From positions 186,001 through 250,000 of the forward strand of contig NZ_STGK01000003.1 of assembly GCF_004919105.1 (NCBI RefSeq): a DNA stretch of 64,000 bases. The letters run 5' to 3'. Numbering within the stretch: position 1 is the first letter of the stretch; the number at the start of each line of letters is the position of its first letter. This stretch comes from Nocardioides sp. GY 10113. Lineage in GTDB: Bacteria > Actinomycetota > Actinomycetes > Propionibacteriales > Nocardioidaceae. A model generated the notes under the pieces. The model searched no databases. It was not told the DNA's origin and was given only the letters and a program-made list of their open reading frames with translations. This document shows, piece after piece, positions 27,188-51,269 of this stretch. The translations under genes were made by a program, and so were the position numbers.

Positions 27188-27197
27188 CCCTCCGGCG

Positions 27198-27227
27198 GTC
27201 GAGGTGCGAGGAGGGCGAGCCTCGACC
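27198..27227. repeat. Palindromic element family C, intergenic copy
   Basis: GGTCGAGGTGCGAGG, AGGGCG and AGCCTCGACC form a near-perfect palindrome 10 bases after the esterase stop. It shares the core GAGGTGCGAGG...GCCTCGA with copies at 38644, 42490, 49518 and 49578. Here it lies outside a gene and could help terminate the two convergent transcripts. Confidence 0.75.
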
Positions 27228-27243
27228 CCGCAAATCCGAGCCG

Positions 27244-38493: not shown

Positions 38494-38528
38494 CGATGGC
38501 GGATCCCGGATGACGGGGTCCGCCATCG
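38494..38528 (+). terminator. Terminator between sseC and the thioredoxin-like gene
   Basis: CGATGGCGGATCCC and GGGGTCCGCCATCG form a 14-bp stem (one G-U) around a 7-base loop. It lies after sseC and before the ribosome site of the next gene. Confidence 0.75.
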
Positions 38529-38542
38529 ACGTTGGAGGAGAC

Positions 38543-39025
38543 ATGACCGGAATCGTTGTGCTGGCCCTCGCGGTCGTCGTCGCGGTGGGCTTCGGCCTCT
38601 ACCGCCGTACGACGGACGGCGCCTTCCGTGGCGCCGAGGACTCGGTGGTCGAGGTGCGAAGCGAAGCGAGCCTCGAAGCCGCCGCGCCCGCGACCACCTG
38701 GACCCAGGTCGCCGCCGCGCTGCCCGACGCCGTGCTCGGCGAGCGGGCGACGCTCGTGCAGTTCTCCTCCGCCTTCTGCGCGCCCTGCCGCACCACCCGC
38801 GTCCTGCTGGCCGACGTCTCCGCCCGTGAGGACGGCGTCGTGCACCTCGAGGTCGACGCGGAGCAGCACCTCGACCTGGTCCGGGCCCTCGACGTACGAC
38901 GTACGCCGACCACGCTGATCCTCGACCCGAACGGCGCCGAGGTCACCCGTGCCGCCGGCGCCCCGCGCCGCGACCAGGTGCTCGCCGCGCTGAGCAGCCT
39001 CGACAACCTGAAGGAGACCGCGTGA
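38543..39025 (+). CDS. Membrane-anchored thioredoxin-like protein with in-frame palindromic insert
   Basis: 160 residues. One transmembrane helix (about 2-20), then residues 35-48 (VVEVRSEASLEAAA) encoded by a palindromic element, then a thioredoxin fold with CAPC at 79-82 in QFSSAFCAPCRTTR. The cis-Pro loop reads RRTPTTLIL. ATG 38543 has a GGAGGAG site. It overlaps the next gene (GTGA) and corresponds in position to the M. tuberculosis thiX gene as recalled. The insert lies in the linker, which explains tolerance. Confidence 0.87.
   Translation: MTGIVVLALAVVVAVGFGLYRRTTDGAFRGAEDSVVEVRSEASLEAAAPATTWTQVAAALPDAVLGERATLVQFSSAFCAPCRTTRVLLADVSAREDGVVHLEVDAEQHLDLVRALDVRRTPTTLILDPNGAEVTRAAGAPRRDQVLAALSSLDNLKETA
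38644..38682 (+). repeat. Palindromic element family C inside the thioredoxin-like gene
   Basis: GGTGGTCGAGGTGCGA-AGCGAAGCGAGCCTCGAAGCCGCC-type palindrome: the core GAGGTGCGA/AGCCTCGA is shared with the other copies. It keeps the reading frame and encodes VVEVRSEASLEAA. Confidence 0.8.
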
Positions 39026-41636: not shown

Positions 41637-42060
41637 CTGGCGTGCCAGGCTCCGTGACTCGGGCTACCGCCTGACCCCGCAGCGCGAGCTGATCCTCGCC
41701 GCGGTCACCGAGCTGGGGCACGCCACCCCGGACGAGGTCCTCGCCCACGTGCAGAGGACCGCGTCCACCGTCAACGCCTCCACGGTCTACCGGACCCTGG
41801 AGGTGCTCGAGGAGCTCGGCCTGGTGCGCCACACGCACCTGAGCGACCGGGCCCCGACGTACCACTCCACGGCCGGCCACGAGCACTTCCACCTGGTCTG
41901 CCGGGGCTGCCGCACGGTGGTCTCGGTGGACGTGGAGGAGGCGGCCGGGTTCGTGGAATCACTGACCACCCGCCACGCGTTCACCCCTGATGTGGGGCAC
42001 CTGACGGTGTTCGGCATGTGCCAGGAGTGTGAGCGCAAGCAGTGCGAGGAGAAGTCATGA
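41629..42060 (+). CDS. nur: Fur-family repressor, Nur-like (nickel)
   Basis: 143 residues. The winged helix YRLTPQRELILAAV with NASTVYRTLEVLEELG, then HFHLVCRGCRTVV (one CxxC) and a C-terminal MCQECE (second CxxC). Overall it resembles Streptomyces Nur (SCO4180) in memory more than Zur or FurA. Nur represses nickel uptake and controls superoxide dismutases. GTG at 41629. The stop overlaps the ygfZ ATG. Metal identity should be confirmed experimentally. Confidence 0.75.
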   Translation: MPDWRARLRDSGYRLTPQRELILAAVTELGHATPDEVLAHVQRTASTVNASTVYRTLEVLEELGLVRHTHLSDRAPTYHSTAGHEHFHLVCRGCRTVVSVDVEEAAGFVESLTTRHAFTPDVGHLTVFGMCQECERKQCEEKS

Positions 42061-43061
42061 CGAGCCAGCCCAGCCCCCTGCTGGACCTTCCCGGGGCGGT
42101 CGCCGGCGACGGCATCGACGCCGGGGTGGCCGCCCACTACGGCTCCCTGTACGGCGAGCAGAAGGCGCTCGCCGCGGGCGAGGGGTTCGTCGACCTCTCG
42201 CACCGCGACGTGTTCCGGGTCAGCGGCCCCGAGCGGCTCACCTGGCTGCACTCGCTGACCACCCAGTACTTCGAGAATCTCGCGCCCGGGGTGTGGGTGC
42301 AGGCGCTGGTGCTGAGCCCGCAGGGGCACGTCGAGCACGCCTTCGCCGGCGTCGACGACGGCGAGGCGTTCACCGCGCACACCGAGCCGGGGCGTGCCGC
42401 CGCGCTGGTGACGTTCCTGGAGCGGATGAAGTTCATGACCCGCGTCGAGGTCGGCGAGGTCGACGACGTGGCCGCGATGTGGCGACCCCCGGTGGTTGAG
42501 GTGCGAGGCGCCCCGGCGCCGAGCCTCGAAACCACCGGTCGATACGACCTCGTGCCCCGCGACCAGCTGGCGGCGTACGCCGACGCGGCCGGTCCCGCGG
42601 CCGGCCTGTGGGCCTTCGAGGCGCTGCGGATCGAGCGCGGCGAGCCCCGCTTCGGCGTGGACACCGACGAGCGGACGATCCCGAACGAGGTCGGCTGGCT
42701 GCAGGGCGAGGCGCCGTGGGCGGCGGTGCACCTGGACAAGGGCTGCTACCGCGGCCAGGAGACGGTGGCCCGGGTGCACAACCTCGGCCGCCCGCCGCGT
42801 CGGCTGACGCTGCTGCACCTGGACGGCTCGGAGAACCGGCTGCCCGCCCCGGGCACCGCGATCACCGTCCAGTCCGGCCTTGCGAAGCCCGTCGGCGCGA
42901 TGGGCTCCTCGGCCCGCCACCACGAGCTGGGCCCGATCGGTCTGGCGCTGCTCAAGCGCAACACGGCGACGGACGCCGCCCTCGAGGTCGACGGTCTGCC
43001 GGCGGCGCAGGAGACGATCGTCGACCCCGACGTGGGGAAGCACTTCCGCCCCACGCGCTGA
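42057..43061 (+). CDS. ygfZ: Folate-binding iron-sulfur assembly protein YgfZ, with a palindromic insert
   Basis: 334 residues. The diagnostic KGCYRGQE occurs at 228-235, and the GcvT-like folate fold is intact. YgfZ helps repair and assemble Fe-S clusters. Residues 145-160 (PVVEVRGAPAPSLETT) are encoded by a family C palindromic element that replaces a surface loop and leaves the frame intact. ATG 42057 overlaps the preceding stop. The gene order nur-ygfZ is common. Confidence 0.92.
   Translation: MTSQPSPLLDLPGAVAGDGIDAGVAAHYGSLYGEQKALAAGEGFVDLSHRDVFRVSGPERLTWLHSLTTQYFENLAPGVWVQALVLSPQGHVEHAFAGVDDGEAFTAHTEPGRAAALVTFLERMKFMTRVEVGEVDDVAAMWRPPVVEVRGAPAPSLETTGRYDLVPRDQLAAYADAAGPAAGLWAFEALRIERGEPRFGVDTDERTIPNEVGWLQGEAPWAAVHLDKGCYRGQETVARVHNLGRPPRRLTLLHLDGSENRLPAPGTAITVQSGLAKPVGAMGSSARHHELGPIGLALLKRNTATDAALEVDGLPAAQETIVDPDVGKHFRPTR
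42490..42538 (+). repeat. Palindromic element family C inside ygfZ
   Basis: Outer arms CCGGTGGTT and AACCACCGG are perfect; inner arms CGAGGCG and CGAGCCTCG-type are near perfect. This is the most complete copy. It encodes VVEVRGAPAPSLETT in frame. Confidence 0.9.
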
Positions 43062-43666: not shown

Positions 43667-45511
43667 GTGACGACACCTGATTCAGGCTCACGACAGCGAA
43701 CCGCGAGGAGGCTCCCCATCCGCGCCAGCAGCCGGGTCAAGCGTCCGATCGTCCTCGGCGGCGCTGCCGTCGTCGTGCTCGTGGTGGGGCTCGCCGCGTG
43801 GAGCGGGTGGCAGGCGTACGCGGTCGCCCGGAGCCTCGACGACGCCGTCGACCACGCCACGACGCTGCGGGCCGCGCTCGCGGCGCCCGATGCGCGGGGC
43901 GACGAGGACCTCGACGCCTCCGCCGTGGCGGCCGTCGAGCTGGAGGCCCTCCGCTCGGCCAGCGACGACGCCGCCGCGCGCACCTCTGGCGCCACCTGGT
44001 CGCTGCTGACGCACCTGCCGTGGATCGGTGACGACGCGCACGGCGTACGGACCACCAGCCGGGTGCTGGACGACATCGCCCGCGACGGGCTGGAGCCGCT
44101 GGTCGAGGTGTCGGACCGGGTCAAGGAGATGCTGCCCCACCGTGGTGGCGTCGACCTGGCCGCTGTCGACGACCTCGCGGAGCCGGTCGCCGCGGCGCAG
44201 GCCGTCTTCGCCGACGCCGACGCCACCCTCCGCGCCGAGGACGACTCGGACTTCACCGATCGCCTGGCCGACCGGTTCGCCGAGTTCCGCGGCCAGGTCG
44301 CGGAGGCGGACCGGGCGATGACGGCGACGAGCACCGCGATGAGCCTGCTGCCGGGCATGCTCGGCGCCGACGGCCCGCGCACCACGCTGCTGGTCTTCCA
44401 GAACAACGCCGAGATCCGCGCCACCGGTGGCCTGCCGGGGGCGGTGATGTCGCTGCACGCCGAGGACGGTGCGCTGTCGATCGGGCGCCAGGTCGCCGGC
44501 AGCAGCCTGGGGCGGACGTCGGAGCCGGTGCTGCCGCTGACCCCGGCCGAGCGGGACCAGTACGGCGACATCCTCGGCACCTACTTCGTCGACGCGAACA
44601 TGACGCCCGACGTGCCGCGGGCCGCGGACCTGATGCGGGCCCGCTGGGAGGCGGCCTTTCCCGACGAGCGGCTCGACGCGGTGCTCCTGATCGACACGGT
44701 GACGTTGGGCTACGTGCTGCAGGAGAACGGCCCGGTCACCGTCGACGGGGTCACCCTGACCGGTGACAACGTCGTCGACGAGCTGCTGCACGGCACCTAC
44801 CTGCGGCTGCCCGACCCGGCCGACCAGGACGACTTCTTCGCCGACGTCGCGGCCAAGGCGTTCGCGCACTTCGTCGACGGGGCCGGCGACGGACCCGGCA
44901 CGGTCCGGGCGCTGGCCCGGGCGGTGGCCGAGCGCCGCGCCTTCGTCCACTCCTTCCACGACGAGGAGCAGGCCGCGCTGGCCGGCTCGCCGGTCGCCGG
45001 CGAGCTGGTCGCCGACCCGGACGTGGCCGCGCCCCAGGTCACGGTGACGATGAACGACACCACGGGCGCGAAGATGTCGTACTTCCTGCGGTACGACGTC
45101 GACGTCCGCGCGACCTACTGCACCGACGGTGTGCAGGGCTTCAGCGCGAAGGCGCGGCTGTGGTCGGCGGCGCCGGCCGACGCGGCGGACCTGCCCGCCT
45201 ACGTGACCGGGGCCAACGGCCGCGGCTACGTCGATGCCGGCTCGCAGCTGGTCACGGTCCGGGTGATGGGCCCGGCCGGCGGGCGGATCAAGGGCATGAC
45301 GGTGGCGTCGAAGCCGACGGAGGCGCGCCGTACCCACCAGGCCGGCCGACCGGTGGCCGAGCTCTACGTCCTGCTGGAACCGGGGCAGAAGGTCGACCTG
45401 GCCTGGACGATGCGCGGCGGCCCCGGCCAGGACGGCGACGCCGCGTTGTGGGTCACCCCGTCGGTCGAGCAGGGGAGCGACGCGGGCACCGTGGCGGCCG
45501 TCTGCCGCTGA
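43667..45511 (+). CDS. DUF4012 protein A
   Basis: 614 residues. One N-terminal helix (about 28-48), then a large extracytoplasmic domain. TWSLLTHLPWIGDDAHGVR and LVFQNNAEIRATGGLPGAV are the DUF4012 hallmarks. Family members sit in actinobacterial exopolysaccharide loci and are assumed to act in glycan export or attachment; none is characterised. Paralogue at 46345 shares these segments. GTG at 43667. Confidence 0.86.
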   Translation: MTTPDSGSRQRTARRLPIRASSRVKRPIVLGGAAVVVLVVGLAAWSGWQAYAVARSLDDAVDHATTLRAALAAPDARGDEDLDASAVAAVELEALRSASDDAAARTSGATWSLLTHLPWIGDDAHGVRTTSRVLDDIARDGLEPLVEVSDRVKEMLPHRGGVDLAAVDDLAEPVAAAQAVFADADATLRAEDDSDFTDRLADRFAEFRGQVAEADRAMTATSTAMSLLPGMLGADGPRTTLLVFQNNAEIRATGGLPGAVMSLHAEDGALSIGRQVAGSSLGRTSEPVLPLTPAERDQYGDILGTYFVDANMTPDVPRAADLMRARWEAAFPDERLDAVLLIDTVTLGYVLQENGPVTVDGVTLTGDNVVDELLHGTYLRLPDPADQDDFFADVAAKAFAHFVDGAGDGPGTVRALARAVAERRAFVHSFHDEEQAALAGSPVAGELVADPDVAAPQVTVTMNDTTGAKMSYFLRYDVDVRATYCTDGVQGFSAKARLWSAAPADAADLPAYVTGANGRGYVDAGSQLVTVRVMGPAGGRIKGMTVASKPTEARRTHQAGRPVAELYVLLEPGQKVDLAWTMRGGPGQDGDAALWVTPSVEQGSDAGTVAAVCR

Positions 45512-46344: not shown

Positions 46345-48096
46345 ATGCTGAGCCCCCGGCCGATCCGCCTGGCCGCCGTCGGCGCCGCCGTGGTCGCGCT
46401 CCTGCTCGCCGCCTGGTGCGCCTGGCAGGCGTGGCAGGTGCAGCGCGACCTGAACGACGCCGTCGCCGGCGCCCGCGCTCTCCAGTCGTCGCTCGACGCC
46501 GGGCAGACCGCGCGAACCGCCGCCGCCCTCGACGCAGTGCAGACGGCCAGCGGTCGCGCCGCCGAGCGGACCGCCGGTCCCACCTGGTCGCTGCTGACGC
46601 ACGTGCCCTGGTTCGGTGACGACGCCTCGGGCGTCCGGGTCACCAGCCGGGTCCTCGACGACCTGGCCCGCGACGGGATCGCGCCGCTGGTCGCCGTGGT
46701 CGACGACCTCGACCGGCTGCTGCCCGATGGCGGCGCGGTCGACGTCGATGCGGTCCGCGCCCTGCAGGAGCCGGTCGCCTCGGCCCGGGCTGCCCTGGCC
46801 GCGGCCCACGAGGACCTGCAGGCGCAGGACGCGTCGGGCTACGTCGCCCGCCTCCGCGACCAGTTCACCGACTTCCGCGACGAGGTCGCCCGCGCCGACC
46901 GCGCCGTGCGCGCCGCGGATACCGCGGCCGCTCTGCTGCCGGCGATGCTCGGCGGAGACGGCGACCGCAACTACCTGCTGGTCTTCCAGAACAACGCCGA
47001 GATCCGCGCCACCGGGGGACTGCCCGGTGCGGTCTCGGAGGTGCGCGCCGCCGACGGCACCCTCGGGATCACCCGCCACGTCACAGGCGCGTCCTTCGGC
47101 CGGACCGACCAGCCAGTGCTCGCCGAGACGAAGACCGAGCGGCAGTTGTACCAAGGCGTGCTGGGGCGCTACTTCCTCGACGCCAACATGACGCCCGACT
47201 TCCCCCGTGCGGCCGACCTGATGCGCGCCCGTTGGGCGCAGGAGTTCCCCGACGACGAGCTCGCCGGGGTACTGATGGTCGACGCGGTGACGCTCGCCTA
47301 TGTGCTCGATGCCACCGGGCCGATCACGGTCGACGGGGTCACCCTGACCGGCGACAACGCGGTGGACGAGCTGCTCAGCGGCACCTACCAGCGGCTCGAG
47401 GACCCGCGGCAGCAGGACGCCTTCTTCGCCGAGGTCGCGGCGGCGGCGTTCGAGCGCTTCGCCACCGGCACAATGAACCCGACCGGCGTGCTCCGCGCCC
47501 TGTCGCGGGCCGCCGACGAGCGTCGGGTCTACCTGCACTCCTTCGACGTCGACGAGCAGGCGCTACTGGCGGGGTCCGCCGTGGCCGGCGAGCTCGTCAC
47601 CGACCCGGGGGTGACCGCGCCCCAGGTCGACGTCACCCTCAACGACTCCACCGGCGCGAAGATGTCGTACTACCTGCGCTACGACGTCGACGTGGACGCG
47701 ACGTACTGCGCCGAGGGCGTGCAGGCGTTCGCCGCGAAGGCCCACCTGGAGTCCGTGGCCCCGCGCGACGCCGCGGACCTGCCCGCCTACATCACCGGTG
47801 GCGGCGTCTACGGCACCGAGCCGGGTCGCCAGCTGGTCACCGTGCGGATCTACGCGCCGGTCGACGGCGCGATCAGCGAGTTCGAGCTCAACGGCAAGAG
47901 GTTCGAGCCGTTGTACACCGACGAGAACGGCCGCCCCATCGCGATGGCCTACATCGAGCTCAAGCCCGGCCAGCGGGTGGACCTCGGCTGGCGGATGAAG
48001 GGCGGACCCGGCCAGGTCGACGACGCCGACCTCACGGTCACGCCGACCATCGAAGAGCAGGACAACGCCGTGACCGTCGAGAGCGCGTGCCGATGA
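46345..48096 (+). CDS. DUF4012 protein B
   Basis: 583 residues from ATG 46345; the frame is open to a GTG at 46333. One N-terminal helix (about 8-28), then TWSLLTHVPWFGDDASGVR and LVFQNNAEIRATGGLPGAV, as in the paralogue at 43667. The C-terminus ends VTVESACR. The same VESACR plus stop reappears 1.75 kb downstream at 49849. It lies directly before a BY-kinase gene. Confidence 0.86.
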   Translation: MLSPRPIRLAAVGAAVVALLLAAWCAWQAWQVQRDLNDAVAGARALQSSLDAGQTARTAAALDAVQTASGRAAERTAGPTWSLLTHVPWFGDDASGVRVTSRVLDDLARDGIAPLVAVVDDLDRLLPDGGAVDVDAVRALQEPVASARAALAAAHEDLQAQDASGYVARLRDQFTDFRDEVARADRAVRAADTAAALLPAMLGGDGDRNYLLVFQNNAEIRATGGLPGAVSEVRAADGTLGITRHVTGASFGRTDQPVLAETKTERQLYQGVLGRYFLDANMTPDFPRAADLMRARWAQEFPDDELAGVLMVDAVTLAYVLDATGPITVDGVTLTGDNAVDELLSGTYQRLEDPRQQDAFFAEVAAAAFERFATGTMNPTGVLRALSRAADERRVYLHSFDVDEQALLAGSAVAGELVTDPGVTAPQVDVTLNDSTGAKMSYYLRYDVDVDATYCAEGVQAFAAKAHLESVAPRDAADLPAYITGGGVYGTEPGRQLVTVRIYAPVDGAISEFELNGKRFEPLYTDENGRPIAMAYIELKPGQRVDLGWRMKGGPGQVDDADLTVTPTIEEQDNAVTVESACR

Positions 48097-48123
48097 CCAC
48101 CGCCGACTCGGGAGAGAAGTGAC

Positions 48124-49668
48124 ATGGAGCTTCGTGACTACCTGCTGATCGCGCGCCGCCGTTGGCTCAGCATCCTCGCGATCACCCTCGTTGTGGTGGC
48201 CGCCGCAGCCGGCGTGACCGCCGTACAGGCCCCGCTGTACGCGTCCGACGCGCGGATCTTCGTCTCGACCGCGCAGTCTGCGGACGGCGCGCTGCTGCAG
48301 GGCGGGCAGTTCGCCGCGCAGCGGGCCATGTCGTACGCCGACCTGGTCAGCAGCCAGGAGCTGGCGCAGCGCGTCGCTGCGGATCTGGGCCTGGACACCG
48401 ACCCCGCGGCCCTCGCCAACCAGGTCGGGGCCAAGGTCGTACTGGACACCGTGAACCTGGCGCTGACCGCGACCGACACCGACCCGGCGGAGGCGCAGCG
48501 GATCGCGCAGGCCTACGCCGAGCACCTCGCCGACCTGGTCCGCGAGCTGGAGACCCCGCCCGGCGCGACCGACGCGCCGATCAAGGCCACGATCGTCGAT
48601 GCTGCGTCGTACTCGGACGCTCCGGTATCGCCGAGCTGGCCGCGCAACCTCGGCCTCGGCCTGGTGGTCGGGCTGCTGCTCGGCGTCGGACTGGCGGTGC
48701 TGCGGCACGTGCTGGACACCCGGGTGCGGACGGTCGAGGACCTCCAGGCCGCGGTGGCGGCGCCCGTGCTCGGTGCTATCCCGTTCGACAACACGGCCGA
48801 GAAGGCGCCGCTGGTCACCGACCTGCCCTCGCACGCCCCGCGTGGCGAGGCCTACCGGGTGCTGCGCACCAACCTGCGGTTCGTCGACGTCGACGCCGAG
48901 GACAAGGTGTACGTCGTCTCCTCGGCCATCCCGGGCGAGGGCAAGACCTCGACCGCCGTCAACCTCGCGCTCAGCCTGGCGCAGGGCGGATCCCGGACGC
49001 TGCTGATCGAGTGCGACCTGCGTCGCCCCCGCGCCGCGAAGCGCCTGGGCATGGACGACGCGATCGGCGTGACGAGTGTGCTGATCGGCAAGGTCGGGTT
49101 CGAGGAGGCGCTCCAGCAGGGCGCCAACGGGCTGGGCCTGCTGGCCGCGGGCCCGACCCCGCCGAACCCGGCCGAGCTCATCCAGTCCCAGGCGATGGCG
49201 GAGCTGCTGGACCAGGCGCGGGCGGCCTTCGATGTGGTGATCGTCGACGCCCCGCCCCTCCTGCCGGTCACCGACGCCGCGCTGCTGGCAGCGAAGGCCG
49301 ACGGCGCGATCCTGGTGGTCAGCCACGGCATGGTGACCCGCGACCAGGTCGCGGGCGCGGTGGAGCGGCTGGCCCAGGTCGACGCGGCGCCGGTCGGCGT
49401 CGTGTTCAACAAGGTGCCGACCAAGGGCCGCGGCTATGGCTATGGCTATGGCTACGCCCCCGACGAGCCCCCCGAACCGCCGGTTGAGGGCGACCCGCTG
49501 GTTGAGCGCGACCCGCTGGTTGAGGTGCGAGGCGCGCTAGCGCCGAGCATCGAAACCAAGGCACCAACTGATCCGCCGGTTGAGGTGCGAGGGGTGCTAG
49601 CGCCGAGCCTCGAAACCACCGACCCGTCCGGACGGGAAGCCCTGGGCAACGCCCCGGCCTCGGCCTGA
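48124..49668 (+). CDS. Polysaccharide co-polymerase/BY-kinase A (Wzz-Wzc type) with repeat-filled tail
   Basis: 514 residues. Wzz domain with two helices (about 13-31 and 176-192). The kinase has Walker A near 268-276 (AIPGEGKTS), A' LLIECDLRRPR near 294-303 and Walker B VVIVDAPPLLPVTD. A Tyr cluster GYGYGYGYAP at 437-446 is the autophosphorylation site. The tail after 450 consists largely of two in-frame palindromic elements and partial copies. BY-kinases control chain length and export of exopolysaccharide. ATG 48124, 27 bases after DUF4012 B. Confidence 0.9.
   Translation: MELRDYLLIARRRWLSILAITLVVVAAAAGVTAVQAPLYASDARIFVSTAQSADGALLQGGQFAAQRAMSYADLVSSQELAQRVAADLGLDTDPAALANQVGAKVVLDTVNLALTATDTDPAEAQRIAQAYAEHLADLVRELETPPGATDAPIKATIVDAASYSDAPVSPSWPRNLGLGLVVGLLLGVGLAVLRHVLDTRVRTVEDLQAAVAAPVLGAIPFDNTAEKAPLVTDLPSHAPRGEAYRVLRTNLRFVDVDAEDKVYVVSSAIPGEGKTSTAVNLALSLAQGGSRTLLIECDLRRPRAAKRLGMDDAIGVTSVLIGKVGFEEALQQGANGLGLLAAGPTPPNPAELIQSQAMAELLDQARAAFDVVIVDAPPLLPVTDAALLAAKADGAILVVSHGMVTRDQVAGAVERLAQVDAAPVGVVFNKVPTKGRGYGYGYGYAPDEPPEPPVEGDPLVERDPLVEVRGALAPSIETKAPTDPPVEVRGVLAPSLETTDPSGREALGNAPASA
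49479..49617 (+). repeat. Palindromic element family C, two copies and partial units in the BY-kinase tail
   Basis: Complete copies lie at 49518-49557 and 49578-49617, each with GGTTGAGGTGCGAGG...CGCCGAGC(A/C)TCGAAACC. Partial CGGTTGAGGGCGA/GGTTGAGCGCGA units precede them. All are in frame and encode (V/L)VEVRGxLAPS(I/L)ET. Confidence 0.88.
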
Positions 49669-49848
49669 CGGCCCCAACGGTCACGGGCAGGTCAACTCTC
49701 GAAGGATCGCGACGGACCGCCGCGCGGACGATGCGACGGTGGAGCCCTGCTTTCCGGTGGGGCTGCCTGGCAACGGCGGGGTGAGGCATGCGCGGCGCCG
49801 TCGATCTGGCGGCGCCCCCACCGCGCGCAGAACGACGCCGCGGCGTCC

Positions 49849-49869
49849 GTCGAGAGTGCGTGCCGATGA
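49849..49869 (+). pseudogene. Vestigial 3' end of a third DUF4012 gene
   Basis: GTCGAGAGTGCGTGCCGATGA reads VESACR-stop and matches the end of DUF4012 B (48079-48096) at all but one base. Beyond it the spacer to the next BY-kinase start also resembles that after DUF4012 B. So the [DUF4012 - BY-kinase] unit was duplicated and the DUF4012 copy lost. Confidence 0.7.
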
Positions 49870-49895
49870 CGGCTGACGCTGGAAGTGGAGTAGGT

Positions 49896-51269
49896 ATGGA
49901 GTTACGGGACTATCTGCAGATCCTGAGGAAGCGCTGGCTCAGCATCCTCCTGGTGACGCTGCTGGTCGCGGGCGCTGCGGCCGGCGTCACCGCGCTACAG
50001 ACGCCGATCTACTCCTCGACCGCGCGGCTCTTCGTCTCGACCGCGGAGACGGACGATTCGGCGCTCTTCCAGGGCGGTCAGTACTCCGCCCAGCGCGTGA
50101 AGTCGTACGCCGACCTGGTAACCAGCCGTGAGTTGGCCAACCGCGTGATCGACGACCTGGGTCTCGACGTCGAGGCGGCCGACCTCAGTCAGGAGGTGTC
50201 GTCGGCGGTCGTGCTGGATACCGTCAATCTCACTCTCACCGTCACCAACACCGACCCGAGTGACGCTCAACGGATCGCCCAGTCGTACGCCGAGCAGCTG
50301 ACGGACCTCGTACGAGAGCTCGAGACGCCACTGGGGGAGAGGGTCCCTCCGATCAAGGCGACGATCGTCGATGCCGCCTCGTTCAGCGGTCTCCCGGTCT
50401 CGCCGAGCTGGCCCCGCAACATCGGCCTCGGCGTGGTGGTCGGCTTCCTGCTCGGCGTCGGCATCGCGGTGCTCCGCGAGACTCTCGACACCCGGGTGCG
50501 CACAGCGAGCGACGTGACCGACGTGATCGATGCCCCGATCCTCGGTTCGATCGGTTTCGACCCCGACGCAGACAAGGCCCCCCTCCTGACCGACATCGGC
50601 ACCCACTCGGCGAGGTCGGAGGCGTTCCGGGTGCTGCGCACCAACCTGCAGTTCGTCGACGTCGACGGGGCGAACAAGGTCTTCGTCGTCACGTCGTCCG
50701 TGCCGGAGGAGGGGAAGACGACCACAGCCGTCAACCTTGCAATGAGCATCGCTCAGGGCGGCGCCAAGGTGTTGTTGATCGAGTGTGACTTGCGCCGGCC
50801 GCGGGCGATCGTGCGGCTAGGGCTCGACGACGCTGTAGGCGTGACCAGTCTCCTGATCGGTCACGCCCTGCCGAACGACCCGGTTCAACTGCATGGCCCT
50901 AGCGGCCTGCACGTGCTCGCAGCGGGGCCGATCCCACCAAACCCTGCGGAACTGCTTCAGTCCAAGTCGATGGCGGATCTGATCGCGCTGGCACGGGAGA
51001 GTTACGACGTCGTTCTGATGGATGCTCCGCCACTCCTGCCGGTCACCGACGCGGCTCTGCTAGCGGCCAAGGCGGATGGCGCCCTCTTGGTTGTCGGCCA
51101 TGGAAGGTTAACTCGCGATCAGCTCTCTCACTCGGTGGAGCGTCTTGCTCAGGTCGAGGGTCAGCTTGTTGGGGTCGTGCTCAACAAGATGCCTGCAAGG
51201 TCGAAGGCGTACGGATACGGATACGGATACGCGCCGGACTCAGTTGACGGAAAGCGCGACAGGCCGTGA
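49896..51269 (+). CDS. Polysaccharide co-polymerase/BY-kinase B (Wzz-Wzc type)
   Basis: 457 residues, close paralogue of the 48124 gene. The N-terminal MELRDYLQILRKRWLSI mirrors it; the Wzz helices, Walker A (VPEEGKTTTA), CDLRRPR and VVLMDAPPLLPVTDA are intact. The Tyr cluster AYGYGYGYAP closes the kinase, without the palindromic tail of copy A. ATG 49896 with a GGAAGTGGAG site. The stop overlaps the next GT start (GTGA). Third-position GC is lower than in copy A. Confidence 0.9.
   Translation: MELRDYLQILRKRWLSILLVTLLVAGAAAGVTALQTPIYSSTARLFVSTAETDDSALFQGGQYSAQRVKSYADLVTSRELANRVIDDLGLDVEAADLSQEVSSAVVLDTVNLTLTVTNTDPSDAQRIAQSYAEQLTDLVRELETPLGERVPPIKATIVDAASFSGLPVSPSWPRNIGLGVVVGFLLGVGIAVLRETLDTRVRTASDVTDVIDAPILGSIGFDPDADKAPLLTDIGTHSARSEAFRVLRTNLQFVDVDGANKVFVVTSSVPEEGKTTTAVNLAMSIAQGGAKVLLIECDLRRPRAIVRLGLDDAVGVTSLLIGHALPNDPVQLHGPSGLHVLAAGPIPPNPAELLQSKSMADLIALARESYDVVLMDAPPLLPVTDAALLAAKADGALLVVGHGRLTRDQLSHSVERLAQVEGQLVGVVLNKMPARSKAYGYGYGYAPDSVDGKRDRP

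Follow-up and report, generated by a model that had tools for sequence, protein, structure and literature searches.

Where does the long C-terminal tail of one of two neighbouring kinases in Nocardioides sp. GY 10113 come from, and does it belong to the regulation of that kinase? The window, i.e. the whole stretch of DNA analysed (64,000 nt), encodes on its forward strand kinase A (48124..49668, an ORF of 514 aa) and its paralogue, kinase B (49896..51269, with the start taken from the alignment to kinase A). The two are 67% identical to each other, and because both score above the curated Pfam cut-offs for Wzz and AAA_31 (in kinase A 34.6 bits against 25.5 and 38.4 against 27, respectively) they are regarded as fusions of a Wzz chain-length domain with a BY-kinase-type P-loop domain. 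In this they resemble the BY-kinases Wzc and CapA-CapB as described in the available part of PMC3795738, kinase A also having the C-terminal Tyr cluster (YGYGYGY, the last Tyr being residue 444). Unlike those proteins, to judge from the same part of that paper, kinase A continues for 70 residues behind the cluster (49456..49665, forward strand, 210 nt), largely as a dispersed DNA repeat. Kinase B lacks the repeat and ends 12 residues behind its last Tyr, in agreement with the initial annotation, which had it stop soon after the cluster.

The tail contains two palindromic elements of 40 nt, both in frame behind the Tyr cluster. Copy 1 (49518..49557, forward strand) encodes VEVRGALAPSIET and copy 2, which follows 60 nt later (49578..49617, forward strand), encodes VEVRGVLAPSLET. 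They are preceded by partial units (49473..49517, forward strand), 18-nt repeats of the left arm lying at 49473-49490 and 49491-49508, with a third (49509-49526) that extends into copy 1. Within the tail, a 49-nt unit recurs 60 nt on with 90% identity; this best internal self-match (44/49) lies far outside the range of 500 dinucleotide shuffles (mean 25.9, maximum 33). The description of the tail as two palindromic elements plus partial units thus holds, but not that it is built from them almost wholly, as they cover 125 of the 210 nt (60%); the other parts are about six residues before the elements, 16 residues after them and a 20-nt spacer. The last part of the tail includes a perfect 14-nt palindrome (49623..49636, unstranded; contig position 235623), which is not a member of the element family and occurs once in 277 kb of this genome. 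As DNA, copy 1 forms a hairpin of -11.9 kcal/mol (z -3.08), matched by 1 of 200 shuffles. The hairpin of copy 2 is weaker (z -1.13, 28 of 200 shuffles as good) and has decayed, and the core of this copy has diverged; among other single elements folded, the one at 42494 in the window likewise exceeds its shuffles only weakly (z -1.60).

Both elements belong to a dispersed, REP-like palindrome family. In the 4.51-Mb genome (G000) the 40-nt tail pattern has 42 matches with up to three mismatches and a looser pattern with exact arms has 82, while both patterns read backward have none, and so a chance origin of the element is not credible. The element occurs in 40-nt and 33-nt forms that differ in the core. 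Inverted pairs are common, some 13-20 bp apart, and opposite-orientation pairs are found for example at C2:30036+/30095-, C5:98163-/98209+ and C6:96845+/96897-. Apart from the two tail copies, the only zero-mismatch 40-nt matches in the genome are an intergenic pair (C2:29971/30036), which lies 7 nt behind a stop codon, has the same core as the tail copies and shares their flanks. Tandem arrays of the 33-nt form were also noticed at C34:68555-68947 (seven copies, 60-bp period) and C3:103501-103863 (six copies, 66-bp period), both intergenic according to our gene caller. The window itself includes a degenerate intergenic copy (27197..27229, forward strand). The arm pattern is present in 87 of 215 genomes of the genus, this one included, and reaches 199 copies in one of them (G149).

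The position of the elements relative to genes was determined in 277 kb made up of the window and the surroundings of known copies, using our own gene caller, which is based on a simple codon model. There, 103 elements (up to three substitutions) were found, 85 of them intergenic, five across a gene edge and 13 inside genes. They form 63 clusters, of which 27 lie between tandem genes, 18 between convergent and three between divergent ones, and 15 are genic, overlapping or at an edge. Of 63 distances measured from a cluster edge to the 3' end of a flanking gene, 34 are 20 bp or less, a raw count that comes without a background rate. The family is thus a short multi-copy palindrome located near gene 3' ends, rarely between divergent genes and often in opposite-orientation pairs, as is expected of REP-like sequences. 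How closely elements and gene ends can meet is seen in a P450-like gene (C29:34950-36206; named by sequence reading), in which the GGTTGA of an element arm provides the stop codon.

The layout of the elements, behind genes and in inverted pairs, is the same as that described for published REPs in the available part of a study of the GTAG and CGTC REP super-families (BMC Genomics 2013, PMC3733652), which also reports REPs inside ORFs. The present element differs from those super-families in that its ends, CGGTGGTTGAGG...CTCGAAACCACCG, read directly, have neither a GTAG nor a CGTC tag, and in the result of a profile search for the RAYT-type domain Y1_Tnp (PF01797), which gave no match in this genome and matches in five of 14 control genomes. 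A RAYT-driven REP was rejected as a candidate on account of this search. Neither Actinobacteria nor Nocardioides is mentioned by name in the available main text of PMC3733652. Among the literature searched, both the element family and the case of kinase A look undescribed.

Frequent REPs within 20 bp of gene ends, together with a draft assembly of 36 contigs, raise the suspicion that an assembly or base error has joined the two, i.e. that the true stop of the kinase precedes the repeats, which would be ordinary 3'-flanking REPs. We consider this very improbable, since the ORF 48124-49668 is open across the whole repeat region, over 210 nt and through both copies and the partial units, and since in-frame copies inside other genes, discussed below, show that the phenomenon is real.

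If the tail were an ancestral part of the kinase, it should be seen in relatives. A kinase match at an E value of 1e-100 or better was obtained in 128 of the 215 genomes of the genus, own genome included, and among the hits listed none from another genome passes query residue 472 without an internal stop. We read the 3' ends at 115 loci, comprising kinase A, two genes that were read twice (in G003 and G024) and a further 112 genes, of which 104 belong to the same genus and eight to the same order. The tails at these 115 loci range from 7 to 99 aa (median 20), those of the twelve best-scoring homologues from 7 to 23 aa; the nearest kinase outside this genome is 67% identical. Element arms were found in the tail of none of the 112 other genes, and identical tails in distant relatives, a finding that would point to an ancestral domain, were not seen. 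A kinase-specific ancestral tail domain was rejected on this basis. A hairpin scan detected a perfect arm of at least 8 nt in five of the 115 tails and in 13 of 115 stretches of 150 nt behind them. Arm-like matches within 300 nt behind the stop occur at 14 of the 115 loci, mostly as one weak match and counted without a chance control. Two loci show three element-like arms each behind the kinase stop, at +14, +39 and +66 in L146 and at +103, +129 and +173 in L171.

Taken together, these observations suggest that the tail of kinase A is probably a captured cluster of the dispersed REP-like palindrome. The ancestral kinase would have had only a short stretch behind the Tyr cluster, like paralogue B and the twelve best-scoring homologues, and an element cluster would have lain behind the end of the gene or have been inserted at it. 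Loss of the original stop codon could then have brought the cluster into the frame of kinase A. The element arms contain no stop codon in five of their six frames, so that read-through yields a VEVR...SLET-type peptide. Subsequently, the tail may have been lengthened by duplication of the 18-nt and the 60-nt unit, the lengths of which are divisible by three. Capture is favoured by the genome-wide repetition of the element (82 matches against none), its positions behind gene ends and the intergenic twin pair at C2:29971/30036, as well as by the homologue tails free of it and the in-frame copies elsewhere, at sites where relatives lack the element. The arms behind the stop in L146 and L171 indicate that the state before capture exists. 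Against it, the position of the lost stop cannot be pinpointed, and an intermediate state was found in no sister strain or species.

The alternative closest to capture by stop loss is that the elements were inserted in frame into an already coding tail, in the manner of Rickettsia palindromic elements, the last 16 residues being the old C terminus. The end of the tail, NAPASA, is not unlike the small-residue ends of two short homologue tails, L116 (APDNASA) and L120 (APDNSASPSA), which speaks against stop loss and fits insertion, although this likeness covers a few small residues only; moreover, the element stands about where it would be expected had it lain behind an old stop. As internal in-frame copies in conserved genes (YgfZ-like, RecQ-like and carboxyltransferase) make insertion inside genes certain in this genome, insertion before the stop has almost the same probability as loss of the stop, and our preference for the latter is slight. 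As a complete account of the tail, with no stop lost and the old C terminus retained, in-frame insertion is a serious but rather doubtful candidate.

The kinase is indeed not the only protein to have acquired the element: 13 units are located inside ten genes of this genome. Within the window these include, besides the two units of kinase A, an element (42494..42533, forward strand) in frame in a YgfZ/GcvT-like gene (42057-43061; Pfam GCV_T/CAF17) and a short-core element (38647..38680, forward strand) in frame in a thioredoxin-like gene (38510-39025; Pfam). Elsewhere, two units lie in frame in a RecQ-like helicase (C6:87017-89242; Pfam DEAD/Helicase_C/RecQ_Zn_bind), two in an AAA ATPase (Pfam) and one, at C11:140585, in an acyl-CoA carboxyltransferase (L081, C11:139799-141433; Pfam Carboxyl_trans). 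An HrpA-like helicase (named by sequence reading) and an APS-kinase/low-molecular-weight-phosphatase ORF (Pfam) also carry the element. The labels YgfZ, RecQ and acyl-CoA are our reading of the Pfam hits. In a Ham1-family gene (Pfam) and a reductase-like ORF (named by sequence reading) the element is situated at the N terminus, and these two cases could be start-site errors.

A VEVR...SLET-like reading is used by ten of the 13 intragenic units, in eight of the ten genes. In the genomes G149 and G112, sampled at the first 30 loci per genome and with up to two substitutions instead of the three allowed in the own genome, only three of 82 elements lie within genes; each of the three is read differently, and one of them in the VEVR frame. 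As the VEVR preference was not replicated there, it was rejected as evidence proving selection.

Comparison with relatives shows that the intragenic sites are variable. At the YgfZ-like site the element is absent in all 24 other rows aligned; the YgfZ-like gene of G033 (L329), read separately, has two units at the same site as the single unit in the own genome. At the RecQ-like site it is absent in 23 of 24 other rows, the exception being again G033 (L220), which has one unit with another core. The two genomes thus share both sites and differ in unit number and core, which may reflect turnover in place or repeated hits. In spite of these two shared sites, the kinase of G033 has an 8-aa tail without the element; capture in kinase A therefore looks younger than the insertions in the YgfZ-like and RecQ-like genes, unless it took place on another paralogue. 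In the carboxyltransferase the element was not seen in 24 other rows. Folding of the loop in the five long-loop rows (L314 and L325-L328) revealed strong in-frame palindromes unrelated to the REP, with the same palindrome in L326 and L327. One loop thus holds the REP in this genome and other palindromes in G007, G012/G021, G016 and G029, making it a possible hot spot for coding palindromes. A wider reading would be that several unrelated palindrome families in this genus enter the same flexible coding sites time and again, always in frame, that their copies then change number and core in place, and that REP-like elements are a continuing source of new peptide segments in conserved proteins, the kinase A tail being one of the outcomes and retained by selection since. 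We regard this wider reading as improbable.

Palindromes that are translated in frame are a known kind of element, both as intragenic REPs and as Rickettsia palindromic elements (RPE), which according to the available part of PMC3733652 are inserted in frame into genes whose proteins are probably functional. Like an RPE, the present element is inserted in frame inside conserved ORFs and is absent from most homologues; its host is different, and the likeness lies in the described mode of insertion.

In the initial annotation the tail was viewed as a repeat expansion fixed next to the phosphorylation site of the kinase, which might alter partner binding or length sensing. That the tail is repeat-derived, adjoins the Tyr cluster and, by the comparison with the 112 homologues, is lineage-specific is borne out. 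A specificity of the expansion for kinase regulation is not: the same element stands in the spaces separating many unrelated genes and is read in frame in about ten, and homologous tails differ freely in length (7 to 99 aa) without it. No support was obtained for an involvement of the tail in partner binding or length sensing. In Wzc, according to the available part of PMC3795738, the Y-cluster of one subunit binds to the active site of the next, so that a tail behind the cluster might matter. Together with the reading frame kept through the 18-nt and 60-nt duplications, the location of the tail beside this cluster could argue for a selected functional module that tunes partner binding, ring assembly or chain-length control. 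However, unrelated proteins contain the same peptide, none of the 112 homologues has the element in its tail, tail lengths vary widely, and the core of copy 2 has diverged. We thus find such a module hardly probable. The predicted tail of kinase A is most likely an extension that is tolerated downstream of the Tyr cluster; if it influences the assembly of the kinase or the kinase A message at all, the influence should be mild.

Kinase A offers a clear example of a mostly gene-flanking palindrome turned into protein, in a bacterium of high GC content whose genome has no recognisable RAYT domain. The same element forms a C-terminal tail here, supplies internal loops to a helicase and a YgfZ-like protein, and provides another gene with its stop codon. 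The route from a 3'-flanking repeat to a protein tail becomes testable, and some caution is called for, in that tails built from repeats should not be read as kinase-specific modules.

Some further observations concern the kinases and their surroundings. A tree was built from kinases A and B and eight relatives, after 27 of 35 input relatives had been dropped by a start-motif filter; the fork joining A, B and the others stays open in it. An AlphaFold model of kinase A, based on an alignment of A and B, had a mean pLDDT of 32.8, too poor to use. The 3' end of the upstream neighbour of kinase A (48056-48097) recurs with 81% identity before kinase B (49829-49870), which may be the trace of a tandem duplication or a cassette exchange at the kinase pair. 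Given this recurrence, the tail of kinase A could be the junction sequence of a duplication. Upstream of the kinases, the tandem ORFs 43775-45511 and 46345-48096 appear similar by eye, and the kinase locus may thus contain duplicated gene pairs.
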